A stretch of DNA of 64,000 nt, from positions 3,100,001 to 3,164,000 of the forward strand of contig KB899087.1 of the NCBI GenBank assembly GCA_000378025.1, given 5' to 3'. The translations under genes were made by a program, and so were the position numbers. This document shows, piece after piece, positions 51,097-60,293 of this stretch (position 1 is its first letter; every line of letters begins with the position of its first letter). The notes under the pieces are model-generated. The model worked only from the letters and a program-made list of their open reading frames with translations, did not search any database and was not told the DNA's origin. Source of the stretch: Xanthobacteraceae bacterium 501b (GTDB lineage: Bacteria > Pseudomonadota > Alphaproteobacteria > Rhizobiales > Xanthobacteraceae).

Positions 51097-51173
<77 letters not shown>

Positions 51174-53452: not shown

Positions 53453-53597
53453 CGATGCCGGCCTGCACGCTTCGGCTTGGGCTAGGCTGCACAACGCATC
53501 AAGATACCGCTTAGGTTGATTGACACCCCGGAACGGGCGCCGCCATGATCTTCCAGCGGTAAAATGCTGGGCAGCTCGGGCGAGGAATGCCGAATCG

Positions 53598-54200
53598 ATG
53601 TCGGAAGAGGATACTCATTTCGCCCAGAGGCTTCGCTCCTGGCGTCGACTGAACGGCATCAAGCAGGTCGCGCTGGCGGATATGCTCGGCGTGTCCCAGG
53701 CGGCCGTGTCGTATTGGGAAAACGGGCACGACACGCCATCCGCCGACCTCATGCGGCGGATCCGCGACCTGATCGACCGGACGGACTGCGACGAGATCCT
53801 GCTGGAGCGTGTGTTCACCGAGCGCCAGCCCGGCATCATGGCGCTCTATGATCTTGACGGCGTCCGCTTGCTGGCGGCATCGCGGGGGTATCGCGCCCTG
53901 TGGCCGGGCATGTCGCTGCTGCAGGGCAAGTCGCTGGAACGTCATCTCGTGAACGAGTCCGGCGAGCTACTGGCGAACGCGGCTCTCCGGCGGGACATCA
54001 ACTCCGGCAAGCTGGCGCTGGTCAGCGGCGTGAGCGACCGACATACCGATATCATCGTCGACACTGCGGTGCGGCATGAGTGGAACACCCGTGTCCGTCG
54101 CTTTGGGTCCAAGACGCTCCTGTCCATCTCCTACGATCCCTGCCCCGAAACGGTCCCGGTGGGCATCACCGAGGTCAAGCTCTTCACCGACCTGAGGTGA
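53598..54200 (+). CDS. XRE-family transcriptional regulator
   Basis: 200 residues from the ATG at 53598. HTH of the XRE/Cro type at about residues 10-62 (LRSWRRLNGIKQVALADMLG, VSQAAVSYWENGHDTPSADL). The rest (about 85-200) is a single sensory-like domain containing LYDLDGVRLLAASRGYRALW and RHEWNTRVRRFGSKTLLSIS, not obviously known. It directly precedes the type I secretion genes and the chitinase. A palindromic motif after its stop recurs upstream of the chitinase, making it the likely regulator. Confidence 0.8.
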   Translation: MSEEDTHFAQRLRSWRRLNGIKQVALADMLGVSQAAVSYWENGHDTPSADLMRRIRDLIDRTDCDEILLERVFTERQPGIMALYDLDGVRLLAASRGYRALWPGMSLLQGKSLERHLVNESGELLANAALRRDINSGKLALVSGVSDRHTDIIVDTAVRHEWNTRVRRFGSKTLLSISYDPCPETVPVGITEVKLFTDLR

Positions 54201-54217
54201 GCCACGGGAGGCGCGGC

Positions 54218-54234
54218 GCTTATGAAATATAAGC
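54218..54234. promoter_or_regulatory. AT-rich palindrome upstream of the secretion genes, candidate operator
   Basis: GCTTATGAAATATAAGC has 6-bp arms (GCTTAT/ATAAGC) around GAAAT. A near copy, CTTATAAAATATAA, is found at 57808-57821 upstream of the chitinase. It lies 18 bases after the XRE gene stop and 167 before the ABC transporter start, a likely place for a shared regulator to act. Confidence 0.65.
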
Positions 54235-54400
54235 ACCTGTCATCCAGCGGCACCCTCATGGCGCCCTTGCTCCGCTTCGCCAGCGCGCGCCATAATTCTG
54301 CACGACGGGCCAAGGTGACATACATCCACGGAATGCACGCGCTCACCCCTTCCAGATGCCAATGGTCGGCCACTGCGCGGCCGCTGGCGATGGGGTGTCG

Positions 54401-56155
54401 ATGACAGCGCGCCCTGCTGAGCCCGGGCCGCCGCGCCGTCGCCTCGGCCGCGTGGTCGGCACCGTGCTCGACGGCAGCCGGCAGGCCCTCATCGGCGTCG
54501 GGGTGTTCAGCGGCGTCACCAACCTCCTGATGCTCACCGGCCCGCTGTTCATGCTCCAGGTGTATGACCGGGTGCTGGTCAGCCGTTCCTTGCCAACCCT
54601 GTGGGTGCTGGGTCTGATTGCGACGGCGCTCTACATCGCCTTCGCGATGATCGACTATGCGAGAGGCCGGGTTCTGGCACGCCTTGGCGATCGGCTGGAA
54701 GCGCAGTTCTCCGGGCCGGCCTTTCGCAGCGAGATCGCCGATGCGTTCGCGGGGCATGCGAGCACCGGCCGGCCGACAGCGGATCTGGCCACGGTCCGCC
54801 GCTTTCTCGGCGGGCCCGCGCCGCTGGCGCTGTTCGACCTGCCCTGGGTGCCACTTTATCTGGTGGTGCTGGGGCTTCTCCACTGGTCGCTCGGGCTCAT
54901 CGGCCTGCTTGGCGTCGCGGTGGTGGTGTCACTTGCCCTCCTGAACAATCACCTGACGCAGGCGCCGATGGCGCTGGCGGCGAGCGAGGCGGCGCAGGCG
55001 GGCACGATGCTGGAAGGCGCCCGCCGCTCCTCCGAGGCGGTGACGGCGCTCGGCATGCGGCCGCAGGTGGCGGGCCTGTGGGGCGGGACACTGGCCCGGG
55101 CACGGGCCACCGAACGCGACGGCGGCGACGCGGCCGCCCGCATCGCGGCGATCTCACGCGGGTTCCGCCTGTTCCTGCAGTCGGCGACGCTGGCGATCGG
55201 CGCGGTTCTGGTGATCGAGCAGGCGGCGACCGGCGGCATCATGATCGCCTCGTCGATCATGCTGGGCCGGGCTCTGGCGCCCATCGACCAAATCGTCGCC
55301 CAGTGGAAGGCCATGGCCGGCGCCCGTGCCGCCCTTGAGCGACTGGAGCGGCGGCTTGCCGATGAGGCCGATGCGGCACCGAAGATGGATCTTCCCACAC
55401 CCACCGGCCATCTCTCCCTTGCCGGCGTCATGGCGGCGCCGCCAGGGCTGCGTCGCCCGGTGCTGGAAGGCATCGGCTTCCGGCTCGAACCCGGCGAGGG
55501 ACTCGGCATTCTCGGGCCAAGCGCCTCGGGCAAGTCCACCCTCGCCCGCATCATCGTCGGCCTCTGGCGCCCGATGAGCGGCAGCGTGCGGCTGGACGGC
55601 GCGACGCTCGACCAGTGGGACGCCGACAGGCTCGGCCGGCATATCGGCTATCTCCCGCAGGATGTGGAACTGATCGGCGGCACCGTGCGCGACGCGATCA
55701 GCCGGCACCAGCCGGGCGCGAAGGACGAGACCATCATCCGTGCCGCTCAGGCCGCGGCGGCTCACGCCATGATCCTGGCGCTGCCCGAGGGATATATGAC
55801 CCGCCTCGGGCCGGGCGGAGCGGCGCTTTCCGGTGGTCAACGCCAGCGCATCGCCCTGGCCCGGGCACTTTATGGCGACCCCTGCCTGATCGTGCTCGAC
55901 GAACCGAACGCCAGTCTCGACCAGGAGGGCGATGCCGCGCTGACGGCCGCGCTGCTGGCCGCCCGCAAGCGCGGCGCCGCCGTGATCGTCATCACCCACC
56001 GCGCCAGCGGCCTTGCCGCCTGCGACCGGGCGCTGGTGCTGAAGGAGGGGCGCATCGCCGCGCTCGGTCCCAAGGAAGCGGTGCTGCGCGACCTGATGAA
56101 GCCGCCCGCCGAGGCGGTGGCAAGGGCGGCGGTTGCGACGGAGAACGCCTCGTGA
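54401..56155 (+). CDS. Type I secretion ABC transporter (PrtD/HlyB type)
   Basis: 584 residues from the ATG at 54401; ATG at 54356 adds 15. Membrane domain with about six helices from residue 40, then the ATPase with Walker A GPSASGKST, signature LSGGQRQRI and Walker B CLIVLDEP. GVTNLLMLTGPLFMLQVYDR is characteristic of PrtD/LapB-type exporters. No cysteine peptidase domain is present, so the substrate need not have a cleaved leader. It overlaps the membrane-fusion protein gene by 4 bases. Confidence 0.92.
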   Translation: MTARPAEPGPPRRRLGRVVGTVLDGSRQALIGVGVFSGVTNLLMLTGPLFMLQVYDRVLVSRSLPTLWVLGLIATALYIAFAMIDYARGRVLARLGDRLEAQFSGPAFRSEIADAFAGHASTGRPTADLATVRRFLGGPAPLALFDLPWVPLYLVVLGLLHWSLGLIGLLGVAVVVSLALLNNHLTQAPMALAASEAAQAGTMLEGARRSSEAVTALGMRPQVAGLWGGTLARARATERDGGDAAARIAAISRGFRLFLQSATLAIGAVLVIEQAATGGIMIASSIMLGRALAPIDQIVAQWKAMAGARAALERLERRLADEADAAPKMDLPTPTGHLSLAGVMAAPPGLRRPVLEGIGFRLEPGEGLGILGPSASGKSTLARIIVGLWRPMSGSVRLDGATLDQWDADRLGRHIGYLPQDVELIGGTVRDAISRHQPGAKDETIIRAAQAAAAHAMILALPEGYMTRLGPGGAALSGGQRQRIALARALYGDPCLIVLDEPNASLDQEGDAALTAALLAARKRGAAVIVITHRASGLAACDRALVLKEGRIAALGPKEAVLRDLMKPPAEAVARAAVATENAS

Positions 56156-57684
56156 GCTCCGGCCCCTCGGATGACCGCCGCGCTTTGTCGTCCGACAAGG
56201 CTTCCCCGCCGCCATCCGCAGGGCCGGAACGCGCCGAAGGGCGAAAGTTCTTCGGCCGGCGCCGACCGGCCGCCTCCGGTTCCCGCGCAACCGATGACCC
56301 GGCCGATCCAGCCGGGCATCTGCGCTTTGGTGCCCTGGTCTGCGTCAGTGTCATTCTCGGCTTCGGCCTCTGGTCGGCCCTCGCCCTGCTGCAGAGCGCG
56401 GTGGTCTCCCCGGGCATCGTGGTGACGGAAGGAAAGTCACGCGCCATCCAGCACCTGGACGGCGGCATCATCAGCGCGCTGGCCGTGCGCGATGGCGCAT
56501 CGGTCAAGGCCGGCGACCTGCTGATCCGCCTCGACGCCACCCGCCATGCCGCCGAACGGGCGATTGTCGAGAACCGGCTCTATGAGGCGCTGGCCCGGCA
56601 GGCCCGCCTCAAGGCCGAGCGCGACGATGCCCCGGCGATGACGCGGCCGGCCATGCTCGATGCCATGGTGGCGGTCGACCGGCAATGGGCGAATGCCGTG
56701 CCTCCCGGGGCCGGGCCGGACCTCGCCGGCGCGGGCCTGCTCGCCGACGGTATCGCGCCCCCCGAGACCGGCGCGGAAATCGCCGACCGCGTGTTCACCG
56801 GCCAGCAGCGGCTGTTTCAGGCCCGGCGCGAGACGCTGAAGGCGCAGGTGGCCCGCCTTGAGGCCGGCATTGCCCAGAGCCGGGAGCAGATCGGCGGCCT
56901 GGAGGCCCAGCGCGCGGCGGCCCTGCGCCAGCACGTCCTCATCGGCCGGGAGCTGGAGGCGGCGCGCGCGCTCGGCGAGAGGGGGCTGATGCCGACCACA
57001 CGCCTTCTGGCGCTGGAGCGCCAGCAGGCCGAGCTGGAAGGCGCCATCGCCGGGCGCATTGCCGACAAGGCCGCCATCGAGCAAGGGATCGGCCAATTGC
57101 AACTGCAGATCCTGGAGCTTGAGCGCGACACGCGGGAGAAGGTACTGACCGAGCTGCGCGAGGCGGAGGCCAATGTGCAGGAGCAGACCGAGGAGCGCAT
57201 CGCCGCCATCGACAAGCTCAAGCGCACGGATATTCGTGCGCCCGTGAGCGGCCGGGTCAACGGCCTCGCGTTCCACACCCTTGGTGGCGTCATCAAGCCG
57301 GGCGACGTGGTGATGGAAATCGTGCCTGATAACGAGACCCTGATTGTGGAAGCCCGCGCGGACCCGGCATCGGTGGACCGGATTCGCGCCGGACAGCCCG
57401 CCCGTGTCCGCCTCGCCGCCTTTGACCAGCACTCCACACCGGAATTGTCCGGCACGCTGCTCGTCGTCTCGCCTGACCGCCTGGTCGATCCCCAGACCGG
57501 CACACCCTATTATGCGCTGAAGGTCGGTATTGATGCTGGCCAGCTGGCCCTGCTCGGCCCGGAACAGGTTCTGGTTCCCGGCATGCCGGCCGACGTGTTC
57601 GTCGTGACCGGCGCGCGCACGCCGCTGAGCTACCTGACAAAGCCGCTGACCGACCAGATGGCGCGGGCGTTTCGGGAAGACTGA
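56152..57684 (+). CDS. Type I secretion membrane-fusion protein (HlyD family)
   Basis: 510 residues from a GTG at 56152 overlapping the ABC gene stop (GTGA). One membrane helix (LVCVSVILGFGLWSALALLQ, about residues 62-82), then a lipoyl-like start (IISALAVRDGASVKAGDLLI), a long coiled coil (about 215-370, rich in Glu/Arg/Ala) and the C-terminal beta-barrel (DIRAPVSGRVNGLAFHTLGG, IVPDNETLIVEARADPASVD). It bridges the ABC transporter and an outer-membrane TolC. It is about 70 residues longer than typical at the N-terminus (charged, low complexity). Confidence 0.92.
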   Translation: MSSGPSDDRRALSSDKASPPPSAGPERAEGRKFFGRRRPAASGSRATDDPADPAGHLRFGALVCVSVILGFGLWSALALLQSAVVSPGIVVTEGKSRAIQHLDGGIISALAVRDGASVKAGDLLIRLDATRHAAERAIVENRLYEALARQARLKAERDDAPAMTRPAMLDAMVAVDRQWANAVPPGAGPDLAGAGLLADGIAPPETGAEIADRVFTGQQRLFQARRETLKAQVARLEAGIAQSREQIGGLEAQRAAALRQHVLIGRELEAARALGERGLMPTTRLLALERQQAELEGAIAGRIADKAAIEQGIGQLQLQILELERDTREKVLTELREAEANVQEQTEERIAAIDKLKRTDIRAPVSGRVNGLAFHTLGGVIKPGDVVMEIVPDNETLIVEARADPASVDRIRAGQPARVRLAAFDQHSTPELSGTLLVVSPDRLVDPQTGTPYYALKVGIDAGQLALLGPEQVLVPGMPADVFVVTGARTPLSYLTKPLTDQMARAFRED

Positions 57685-57807
57685 GCCCGGCGCCACGCCC
57701 GAAATCCGGTAGCGAGGGCCGCGCGCGCAAACAACTCTTCCACGCAGAGAGACGAAGGTCGCGTATGTCGCGCGCGGCGGCGATGCCGTTATTTCGGAAA
57801 TCTCCCA

Positions 57808-57839
57808 CTTATAAAATATAACCTGCCGAAAACGGCAGG
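57808..57839. promoter_or_regulatory. Second operator-like motif and hairpin upstream of the chitinase
   Basis: CTTATAAAATATAA (57808-57821) matches the core of the motif at 54218-54234 at 13 of 14 positions, with a different palindrome end. Right after, CCTGCCG pairs with CGGCAGG around AAAA (57822-57839). The chitinase start is 130 bases further. The hairpin could affect leader stability or be part of the regulator site. Confidence 0.6.
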
Positions 57840-57971
57840 AGAGCTAACCTTTTGACATGATGCCTTGATGCGCGGGGTGCATTCAGGCGTGGGCTGCGCA
57901 ACACGGGCGCCGGAATGGTGCGCTTGGGACGGCTCGACCCTGCGGGTGGTGATACTGATCAGGAGGTTTCG

Positions 57972-60230
57972 ATGTCTTTTGTTTCCGGTACAACGACAAC
58001 GATCACATGGCAGTGGGGCACCGCGACGGTGCTTGCCTTCGACCCGGCCGCCGACGTGCTCGACTTCGGCTGGTTTTCCTCGACCAATTTCACCATCTCG
58101 GAAGTCGACGGCGAGGTCGTCATCTCCATTCCTTCCAACAACCAGACCTACCGGCTGGAAGGTGTCCAGCTGTCCGATCTGACCCTCGACAACATCACCG
58201 CCCGCGACGCCTCGGCCCTTTTGGCCTGGCAGGTCGCGCTCGAGGCGGCTGGCAGCGGCGACGGCACGGATGATGGCGGCGAGCCCGGCGATACCGGCGG
58301 GGATTCCGACGGGGATTCCGACGGCGACGGCGGTTCCGATGGCGACGGCGAAGAACCGGAAGCCGGCTATGCAGCCGCCTGGTCGGCCAGCGACATCTAC
58401 ACCGGGGGCGACCGCGTCAGCATCGGCAATCTGGTGTATCAGGCCGGGTGGTGGACGCAGGGCGAAGACCCCTCCGCCGGCGGGTCGGTATGGACCCTTG
58501 TCGGCTACATGGACACCACGCCCGTGGTGCCGGACGCACCGGAGGACCTCTATGCCGCCGGCACTTCCGCGACGACCACCGTGCTGGTGTGGGATGCGGC
58601 CGAGGTGAACGGGGTCGGCACGGTCAGCGCCTATCAGATCTACCAGGACGGCGTGCTGATCGCGACCACCTCCTCCACCTATTACAAGGTGACGGGGCTG
58701 GAGCCCTCCACCGCCTATGCCTTCAGCATCGTCGCGATCGACGAGGCCGGGGCTTCCCAGGCCTCCGAGGTGGTGAGCGTGAGCACCGCCGTCGAGGGCA
58801 CGGGCGGGGGCGACAAGACCTTCTCGCCCTATATCGACATGTCGCTGTCCAGCAGCCAGAACCTGGTCGACATCGTCGACGCCGCCGGGCTGAGCGCCGT
58901 CACCCTGGCCTTCGTCCTCTCCTCCGGTCCCGACACGCTCGGCTGGGGCGGCATCGGCACGATTGCGGCGGACACGCTGCCCAATGGCACCTCCATCCTG
59001 TCGCAGATCGAGACGCTGCAGGCGCGGGGCGTGGAAGTGACAATCTCGCTGGGCGGCGCCAACGGCCAGGAAGGGGCGCTCACCTTCTCCAGCGCCGAGG
59101 CCCTTGCCGCCGCCTATCAGGAGATCATCGACCGCTACCACGTCACCCAGCTGGACTTCGACATCGAGGGATCGGCGATCGCCAATGACGCGGCCAATGC
59201 GCTGCGCAACGAGGCGCTGGTGCTGCTGCAGGCGGCCAATCCCGAGCTGGAAATCTCGTTCACCCTGCCGGTGCTCACCGTCGGCCTGACACAGGACGGC
59301 ATCGACCTGCTCACCGCGGCCATGGCGGCGGGGGTGGAGATCGCCACCGTCAACATCATGGCGATGGACTATGGCGAGTATTACGACACCGGCGACATGG
59401 GCAATGACGCCATTTCCGCCGCGCAGGCGACCCTCGCCCAGATGGAGACGATCGGCCTCGACAGCCCGCTCGTGATCACGGTGATGATCGGCATCAACGA
59501 TGTCACCTCGGAAGTGTTCACGCTGGAGGATGCCGAGCAGCTCGTCGCCTTTGCCCAGGCCAATGACAGCGTCGCCGGCATCTCCATGTGGTCGCTCAGC
59601 CGCGACAACGGTTCCGCCACCGGCTATGTCTCGCCGACCGGCAGCGGCCTCGTTCAGGACAGCTATGCCTTCGCCGAGATCCTGAAGACAGTGACCGACA
59701 GCAGCGATACCGACACCGGCAATGGCGACGGTGACGGCGATACCGATGGCGGCGATACCGACACCGGAAGCGAAGATGGTGACGGCGATACCGATGACGG
59801 CGACACCGATACCGGGAACGGTGACGGCGACACCGATGGCGGCGACACCGACACCGGGAACGGCGATGGTGACGGCGACACCGGAAACGGCGATGGCGTC
59901 AGCACCACCACCGCCATCAACTGGGCCTGGGGCACCGACACCGTGCTGGCCTTCGAGCCGAGCACCGACACGCTCGATTTCGGCTGGATGTCGGCGCAGA
60001 GCTTCTCGGTTTCGGAAGTTGGCGGCTCGGTCGTCATCGACATCGCCGGCAACAACCAGAGCTACACGCTCGACGGCGTGACGCTGGCCGACATGTCGAT
60101 CGACGACATCACGGCCAAGGATGCCTCGGCGCTGGCCGAATGGCAGGCCCTGCTTGATGCCGCCGATGATGCCGCTGCGCAAACAGCCGTCGTCGCCAGC
60201 GCGCTGCACGCATCGGACGGCCTCGTCTGA
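57972..60230 (+). CDS. Multidomain GH18 chitinase-like protein, probable type I secretion substrate
   Basis: 752 residues; the ATG at 57972 follows AGGAGG by 5 bases. There is no signal peptide. Domains: an ~80-residue repeated module (7-88), a Gly/Asp linker, a chitin-binding CBM5/12-type motif (about 131-178: AAWSASDIYTGGDRVSIGNL, YQAGWWTQGEDP), a fibronectin III domain (about 187-273), the GH18 barrel (about 278-575) with catalytic D395-F-D-I-E399, a long Asp/Gly/Thr linker (about 577-643), and a second copy of the module (about 645-730: INWAWGTDTVLAFEP, IAGNNQSYTLDGVTLADMSI). Its place after the secretion genes and the lack of a leader suggest export through them. Confidence 0.88.
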   Translation: MSFVSGTTTTITWQWGTATVLAFDPAADVLDFGWFSSTNFTISEVDGEVVISIPSNNQTYRLEGVQLSDLTLDNITARDASALLAWQVALEAAGSGDGTDDGGEPGDTGGDSDGDSDGDGGSDGDGEEPEAGYAAAWSASDIYTGGDRVSIGNLVYQAGWWTQGEDPSAGGSVWTLVGYMDTTPVVPDAPEDLYAAGTSATTTVLVWDAAEVNGVGTVSAYQIYQDGVLIATTSSTYYKVTGLEPSTAYAFSIVAIDEAGASQASEVVSVSTAVEGTGGGDKTFSPYIDMSLSSSQNLVDIVDAAGLSAVTLAFVLSSGPDTLGWGGIGTIAADTLPNGTSILSQIETLQARGVEVTISLGGANGQEGALTFSSAEALAAAYQEIIDRYHVTQLDFDIEGSAIANDAANALRNEALVLLQAANPELEISFTLPVLTVGLTQDGIDLLTAAMAAGVEIATVNIMAMDYGEYYDTGDMGNDAISAAQATLAQMETIGLDSPLVITVMIGINDVTSEVFTLEDAEQLVAFAQANDSVAGISMWSLSRDNGSATGYVSPTGSGLVQDSYAFAEILKTVTDSSDTDTGNGDGDGDTDGGDTDTGSEDGDGDTDDGDTDTGNGDGDTDGGDTDTGNGDGDGDTGNGDGVSTTTAINWAWGTDTVLAFEPSTDTLDFGWMSAQSFSVSEVGGSVVIDIAGNNQSYTLDGVTLADMSIDDITAKDASALAEWQALLDAADDAAAQTAVVASALHASDGLV
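59700..59900. repeat. Asp/Gly/Thr low-complexity coding repeat
   Basis: Imperfect repeats of GGCGATACCGACACCGGC-like units encode DGDGDTDGGDTDTGNGDGD-type sequence between the GH18 domain and the second module. Such acidic Gly-rich linkers resemble calcium-binding RTX sequence but lack the exact nonapeptide. Copy number probably varies between strains. Confidence 0.75.
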
Positions 60231-60242
60231 TCCACCGACCGC

Positions 60243-60290
60243 GACCAAGCCGCAGGCGGCCGTGATCCGCCTGCGGCCGCAGCTTTGGTC
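60243..60290. terminator. Strong hairpin after the chitinase gene
   Basis: GCCGCAGGCGG and CCGCCTGCGGC pair perfectly (11 bp), extended by GACCAAGC with GCTTTGGTC. No run of T follows, so it may act as a stable end or a factor-assisted stop for the converging chitinase and hydrolase genes. Confidence 0.55.
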
Positions 60291-60293
60291 GCA

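Follow-up and report, generated by a model that had tools for sequence, protein, structure and literature searches.

A 64,000-nucleotide stretch of the genome of Xanthobacteraceae bacterium 501b (the window, C1:3100001-3164000 of a 5.1-Mb source genome) appears to carry a self-contained type I secretion cassette for an enzyme of glycoside hydrolase family 18 (GH18). The probability of this reading is put at roughly 0.8. The cassette consists of genes for an XRE-family regulator, an ATP-binding cassette (ABC) exporter, a membrane fusion protein (MFP) and a chitinase-like protein of 752 amino acids (aa). An earlier note on this DNA had described these four genes, with a GTGA overlap between ABC and MFP and no signal peptide on the chitinase-like protein. 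That observation is confirmed: the genes lie where the note had placed them, their family models score above the cut-offs, and the lack of a signal peptide agrees with hydropathy and with two control proteins. The note's further proposal, a GH18 enzyme secreted by a type I system on a regulated cue, is very likely; it is well supported by the sequence, not proven. Three features go beyond the earlier note, namely an 84-aa module found at each terminus of the enzyme, twin operator-like sites and a strong hairpin 3' of the last gene. The features are as follows.

53520..53549, + strand: promoter-like site 5' of the XRE gene, close to where the shared cassette DNA begins on the left
53598..54200, + strand: XRE-family regulator, 200 aa
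54219..54233, + strand: operator-like palindrome CTTATGAAATATAAG before the ABC-MFP genes
54401..56155, + strand: PrtD-type type I secretion ABC exporter
56152..57684, + strand: HlyD-type MFP
57808..57822, + strand: operator-like palindrome CTTATAAAATATAAC, 164 bp before the GH18 start
57972..60230, + strand: leaderless module-CBM5/12-fn3-GH18-module protein, 752 aa
57993..58244, + strand: N-terminal copy of the 84-aa module
59907..60158, + strand: C-terminal copy of the 84-aa module
60241..60292, + strand: hairpin 3' of the last gene

The exporter matches the PrtD-type model TIGR01842 at 644 bits (cut-off 510). Its frame is open already from an ATG at 54356 and stops at 56155; the ATG at 54401 was taken as the start because similarity to relatives begins there. 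The MFP matches TIGR01843 at 381 bits (cut-off 209) and starts with a GTG that overlaps the exporter stop codon. A TolC-type channel (TIGR01844, 320 bits against a cut-off of 225) is encoded at C1:1028822, unlinked to the cassette. The regulator scores 44.9 bits against HTH_3 (cut-off 23) and is also above the cut-off of HTH_31, and no Pfam match was found outside this part of the protein. In the 752-aa protein, CBM5/12, fn3 and GH18 all exceed their Pfam cut-offs, GH18 (PF00704) barely so (30.0 against 29.6 bits). Profile comparison matched the GH18 domain to exochitinase 1 (9buf) at E 4e-66 and to chitinase 2dsk at E 3e-34. The DxDxE motif is kept as DFDIE and aligns with 9buf.

The absence of a leader was judged by hydropathy only. 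The highest 12-residue mean within the first 40 residues of the GH18 protein is 1.24, compared with 2.12 and 2.35 in two control proteins of Sec-exported look from the same genome, and its first 20 residues contain neither lysine nor arginine. Cysteine is absent from the protein, acidic residues (122) far outnumber basic ones (11), and the calculated isoelectric point (pI) is 4.05. Low cysteine content and low pI are usual for type I substrates. A search of the enzyme for the RTX nonapeptide GGxGxDxU found no copy, and its identification as an RTX protein was dropped for this reason. The seven orthologues end in similar residues (DGLV, DGLA or DDLV).

Is the neighborhood of these genes a product of chance? 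This explanation was dropped because of the co-occurrence of the genes in 30 genomes of Ancylobacter, the genus of the source genome, and because of the operator-like sites. A full-length GH18 protein is present in seven of the 30 genomes (in one of these, G027, reported as two pieces), and an XRE orthologue with at least 74% identity is present in the same seven. An exporter orthologue (at least 87%) was found in six of these seven and in none of the remaining 23, the next best match being 51%. The Fisher p values, which ignore the kinship of the genomes, are 5e-7 for XRE with GH18 and 1e-5 for the exporter with GH18. The earlier note had proposed a search for conserved synteny, and the order XRE-ABC-MFP-GH18 indeed recurs at six of the seven Ancylobacter GH18 loci; the seventh (L035) reads XRE-GH18. 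Two further Ancylobacter genomes hold a 41% XRE relative. The one in G001 was considered as an extra cassette and dropped, as its neighbor is a repeat protein of Sec-exported look.

Similarity with the other six loci begins at 53513-53520 (53486 for L032), near the promoter-like TTGACA, and stops at 60276-60277, within the stable hairpin. Beyond these edges, only L032 was similar among the stretches compared, and its downstream flank is inverted and farther off. This pattern fits a unit that may have moved as a whole. Plasmids were dropped as carriers of the cassette: of 72,556 plasmid records, 51 gave a match, and none of these matches spans 80% of the enzyme. The promoter-like site (TTGACA/CATGAT) has 10 of 12 matches, with one such site found in the region against 0.5 expected, and its TTGACA is aligned in all seven loci. 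The hairpin has a predicted RNA folding energy of -36.7 kcal/mol (z -4.2), and none of 200 shuffled sequences was equally stable; a terminator scan made no call on it. A tRNA-Arg (CCG) gene lies 2.4 kb upstream of the cassette, at 51097-51173 of the window.

The regulated cue proposed in the earlier note gained support from the palindromes, since a cassette-private operator-like site precedes both transcription units. A search of the window for the core pattern, tolerating a single mismatch, found these two palindromes and nothing else, with 0 matches expected. The pattern CTTATRAAWTATAAS (CTTAT type) occurs 11 times in the 30 Ancylobacter genomes, always within the seven cassettes, and its reversed form, used as a control, occurs once. 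A palindrome lies 164-169 bp before GH18 in all seven loci, including L035. Before the exporter, four of six loci carry the CTTAT type and the other two carry a GTTAT variant, GTTATAAAATATAAC. When this variant is counted, all 13 expected site positions are filled; the whole-genome search used the CTTAT form, and the GTTAT form was sought within the retrieved loci. The XRE protein is predicted to bind these palindromes; regulator and site occur in the same seven genomes.

These observations suggest a mechanism for the cassette. The XRE regulator would bind the palindrome, which in this genus is confined to the cassette, at both of its positions, ahead of the exporter genes and ahead of the enzyme gene. 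As the palindrome stands before both units, the regulator is proposed to switch exporter and enzyme together. The ABC exporter and the HlyD adaptor would then join the TolC-type channel encoded elsewhere, and the leaderless enzyme would leave the cytoplasm and reach the exterior in a single step. There, CBM5/12 and fn3 may keep the GH18 domain attached to its substrate, presumed to be chitin or a similar polymer. The terminal 84-aa modules, most likely kin of the region that closes RTX repeats, may help export and folding, and the actual export signal would lie in the C-terminal end of the enzyme.

What is the 84-aa module? The two copies in the enzyme are alike at 50 of 84 residues. It was dropped as a known Pfam domain because the best family match among 14 module copies was not below E 0.14. 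The structure 6xi3, the best PDB profile match of the first module alignment (E 1.4e-6), was dropped because it was missing with a wider alignment. The top PDB match of that wider alignment (5but, E 6e-4) was disbelieved because only two short pieces aligned. The module is rare. At E 1e-10 it was found in 11 of 397 genomes of an order sample and in two of 398 genomes of a phylum sample, both Ancylobacter. A scan of public genomes found 36 loci with the module which, judged by names, we take to be mainly Alphaproteobacteria with a few Gamma- and Betaproteobacteria. The module proteins at these loci include GH18 enzymes (with strong or weak Pfam scores), GH5 enzymes, and Calx-beta or unassigned proteins. 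Hydropathy counted from the first methionine exceeds 1.50 (12 residues) in none of 38 module proteins, and is higher only from a later methionine in a few of them. Among 37 (the 38 minus one under 400 aa), cysteine is absent from 31 and reaches a maximum of two, and the calculated pI is 4.58 or lower in all. In Shimia/Ruegeria, four module proteins (L080, L082, L083 and L084) have frames of 898-1080 aa and similar N-termini (MSNGTF or MNNGTY). The two that were scanned, L080 and L082, have no enzyme domain above cut-off. An exporter pair lies near L082 and L084.

The origin of the module was examined by setting it beside the segment that follows the final repeat in RTX proteins of Ancylobacter. 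An hhalign comparison aligned 56 columns (P 3.5e-4, probability 37%). With 16 of 17 rows the score was 24.1 (probability 31%), which tops all 200 column shuffles (maximum 19.4), a mild control, and also the reversed control (12.7). This likeness is suggestive of a common origin of the module and the post-RTX region; it is not proof.

The association between module proteins and exporters extends beyond the genus. Of the 36 public module loci, 17 have an ABC/MFP pair no more than ~10 kb away (nine of 10 Ancylobacter loci and eight of 26 others). The expected frequency is ~1.6% per locus, estimated from four PrtD exporters in 5.1 Mb. Pairs were accepted by BLAST score (ABC above 230 bits, MFP above 90 bits), and model checks were limited to six ABC proteins (L003, L052, L068, L122, L126 and L084) and two adaptors (L003 and L052), all of which pass their family cut-offs. 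GH18 together with an ABC/MFP pair was also found in Martelella (L052 and L053), Enhydrobacter (L068), a proteobacterial metagenome-assembled genome (MAG; L065), and two further genomes of the order (L115 and L117). In L117 (8613-11403, G473) the module-GH18 gene is apparently split over three frames, next to the exporter pair. In Xanthobacter (L055 and L063), GH18 and the pair are in converging orientation. An exporter tree places the GH18-linked exporters of Ancylobacter, Martelella and the two order genomes in one clade (100/100, 10 rows) and the GH5-linked Ancylobacter exporters in a separate clade (100/100, 10 rows); it has long branches, and its remaining joins are unsure. In other words, exporters within Ancylobacter follow the enzyme, not the genome. 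Enzyme and exporter seem to have been paired on more than one occasion.

Several observations weigh against the self-contained secretion cassette proposed here. The GH18 Pfam score lies just above its cut-off. Many related proteins have their modules at the N-terminus and end with the GH18 domain, so the module is not simply a classical C-terminal signal. The C-terminal module was also dropped as the export signal itself, because exporter-linked GH18 proteins of L065 and L068 lack a C-terminal module. In the tree, the Enhydrobacter and MAG exporters group apart (100/100, 2 rows). The two Xanthobacter exporters join a second exporter of G016 (100/100), and their GH18 neighborhood may therefore be accidental. 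In L035 (G005 C13, A. dichloromethanicus), XRE, site and GH18 are present and no exporter genes adjoin them, which could reflect either loss or an older state. Among 40 further module loci of the family and order, only six adjoin a pair, two of which repeat earlier loci (L126 is L055 and L127 is L063; others overlap likewise), and 34 have no adjoining pair, some of them close to contig ends. The earlier note had named homologues commonly lacking type I genes as a finding contrary to its proposal. Such loci are indeed common as far as neighboring genes are concerned. Among the 41 genomes of the family in which the module was matched, 39 have a PrtD-type exporter gene at some position.

The corresponding number for genomes without the module is 259 of 350 (Fisher p 0.0015, kinship ignored), and the excess in module genomes is therefore modest. 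Module and exporter counts were taken as covering the same 391 genomes, given their equal numbers and handles. For strong module matches alone (E below 1e-10), 31 of 33 genomes have a PrtD exporter; the other eight matches have E above 1e-8. The two module genomes in which no PrtD exporter was found, G124 and G125, are 82% and 84% complete. Three candidates were scored per genome, so that extra exporters were possibly missed; for G013, the single exporter in the census is presumably the cassette's own. Module proteins with no adjoining pair may thus use an unlinked exporter. The source genome (G000) itself encodes four PrtD exporters. The third, with its adaptor, adjoins a 1998-aa frame with true RTX repeats (L047 6620-15937, near C1:3577010). 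The fourth, also with an adaptor, lies past the window end (L048 6802-10535, near C1:3170191), beside a divergent 261-aa frame that holds a SGDDRPxEExSLSF-like motif twice.

How else might these observations be explained? The adjoining exporter might carry something else, in which case the enzyme would exit by lysis, vesicles or another route, or act in the cell, and the cassette would be shared through its common regulator. L035 and the 34 loci without an adjoining pair would fit this explanation, as would the leaderless chitinases of marine Synechococcus which, in the part of the source drawn on here, occur in exoproteomes and are assigned to a non-classical route (PMC4949707). It is nevertheless quite improbable, because the cassette frames include no other likely substrate gene, the module proteins are acidic and cysteine-poor, pairs recur beside them in more than one exporter lineage, and the exporter orthologue never occurs without this GH18 in the 30 Ancylobacter genomes. 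A somewhat unlikely explanation, and the better of the two, is that any PrtD-type exporter of the cell can carry the enzyme, the adjoining pair being convenient, not dedicated. L035 has no adjoining pair and its genome holds other PrtD exporters, the unlinked module proteins occur in genomes that nearly all encode such an exporter, and the source genome has four. However, the GH18-linked Ancylobacter exporters clade with the Martelella type and apart from the GH5-linked exporters of their own genus, and one operator-like site stands before each unit of the cassette, both of which argue for a dedicated pair.

The module invites its own alternative, that it serves to bind polysaccharides or surfaces and has no export role. 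This possibility deserves to be taken seriously, even if it falls short of even odds: the module is found on polysaccharide enzymes, often in tandem and N-terminal. Against it, the module also occurs on a Calx-beta protein and on the Shimia/Ruegeria proteins without a recognized enzyme domain, and its likeness to the post-RTX region beats every column shuffle, though at a low hhalign probability. A bolder proposal makes the module a portable export element, descended from the RTX-closing region, that would be active at N-terminal, internal or C-terminal positions in leaderless polysaccharide-degrading enzymes and would define a class of non-RTX type I substrates. In Ancylobacter it would have become part of a transferable cassette of regulator, exporter and chitinase that brings its own operator. 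This proposal is unlikely as it stands. If it were true, non-RTX type I substrates of this class could be recognized without adjoining exporter genes. A dedicated secretion cassette for the GH18 enzyme, if real, would add a chitinase route to type I secretion, would be compact enough for a joint test of regulator, operator, exporter and enzyme, and would offer a sequence marker for leaderless enzymes of unassigned export route.

No report of a type I-secreted GH18 chitinase was found in the literature on chitinases and type I secretion, PrsD glycanases, Ancylobacter chitinases and non-RTX substrates, which was covered mainly by titles and abstract starts and included few subscription journals. 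In the portion available of a 2026 review of secretion systems acting against fungi, chitinases are listed for types II, IX and X, and type I is listed only for a lipase and HasA (PMC13162877). The available portion of a 2026 genome paper gives type II as the only documented route of chitinase export (PMC13182010).

The cassette resembles several known systems, each in part. The GH18 domain and its DFDIE motif are those of the chitinases 9buf and 2dsk, from which the enzyme differs by its terminal modules and linked exporter. With RTX proteins it shares the exporter family, an acidic leaderless protein and a weak resemblance of the module to the post-repeat region, but it lacks the nonapeptide and has module copies at both ends. 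Chitinases of marine Synechococcus, as described in the part of the source available, have no signal peptide, N-terminal binding domains and a C-terminal chitinase domain, and are extracellular (PMC4949707). The cassette enzyme is likewise leaderless with binding domains ahead of the chitinase domain; the export route of the Synechococcus enzymes is unassigned there.

A further parallel is present in Ancylobacter itself. A 1705-aa GH5-CBM2-Calx-beta protein of the source genome carries one strong copy of the module (112 bits) and two weak ones (19 and 10 bits), located near its N-terminus, and its gene comes after a PrtD/HlyD pair that scores above both cut-offs (L003 4886-13187 and relatives). 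Such a pair also adjoins all nine GH5 loci retrieved from relatives. Genes for a LytTR response regulator and a histidine kinase lie on one strand of this locus, and the pair and the GH5 protein on the other (L003 2677-13187, C1:482676-493186). The GH5 cassette differs in its enzyme (GH5 with CBM2 and Calx-beta), in its regulatory genes (histidine kinase and LytTR instead of XRE) and in the clade of its exporter.

An experimental parallel is the PrsDE system of Rhizobium. According to the portions available of two papers, PrsDE exports the leaderless non-RTX glycanases PlyA and PlyB and the glycosyl hydrolase RL2412, an assignment made because the supernatant of a prsD mutant lacks these proteins (PMC2275737, PMC3034196). 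The likeness lies in a rhizobial type I exporter with leaderless glycanase cargo, which the cassette would share if its enzyme is exported as predicted. The differences are that PrsDE is one exporter with several substrates, whereas regulator, exporter and enzyme stand in one cassette here, and that the cassette enzyme is a GH18 protein with CBM5/12 and the 84-aa module. Type I export of leaderless glycanases is therefore known; new to the system described here are the GH18 enzyme as its predicted cargo, the linked exporter, the private operator-like site, and a Pfam-less module that reaches well beyond this locus.

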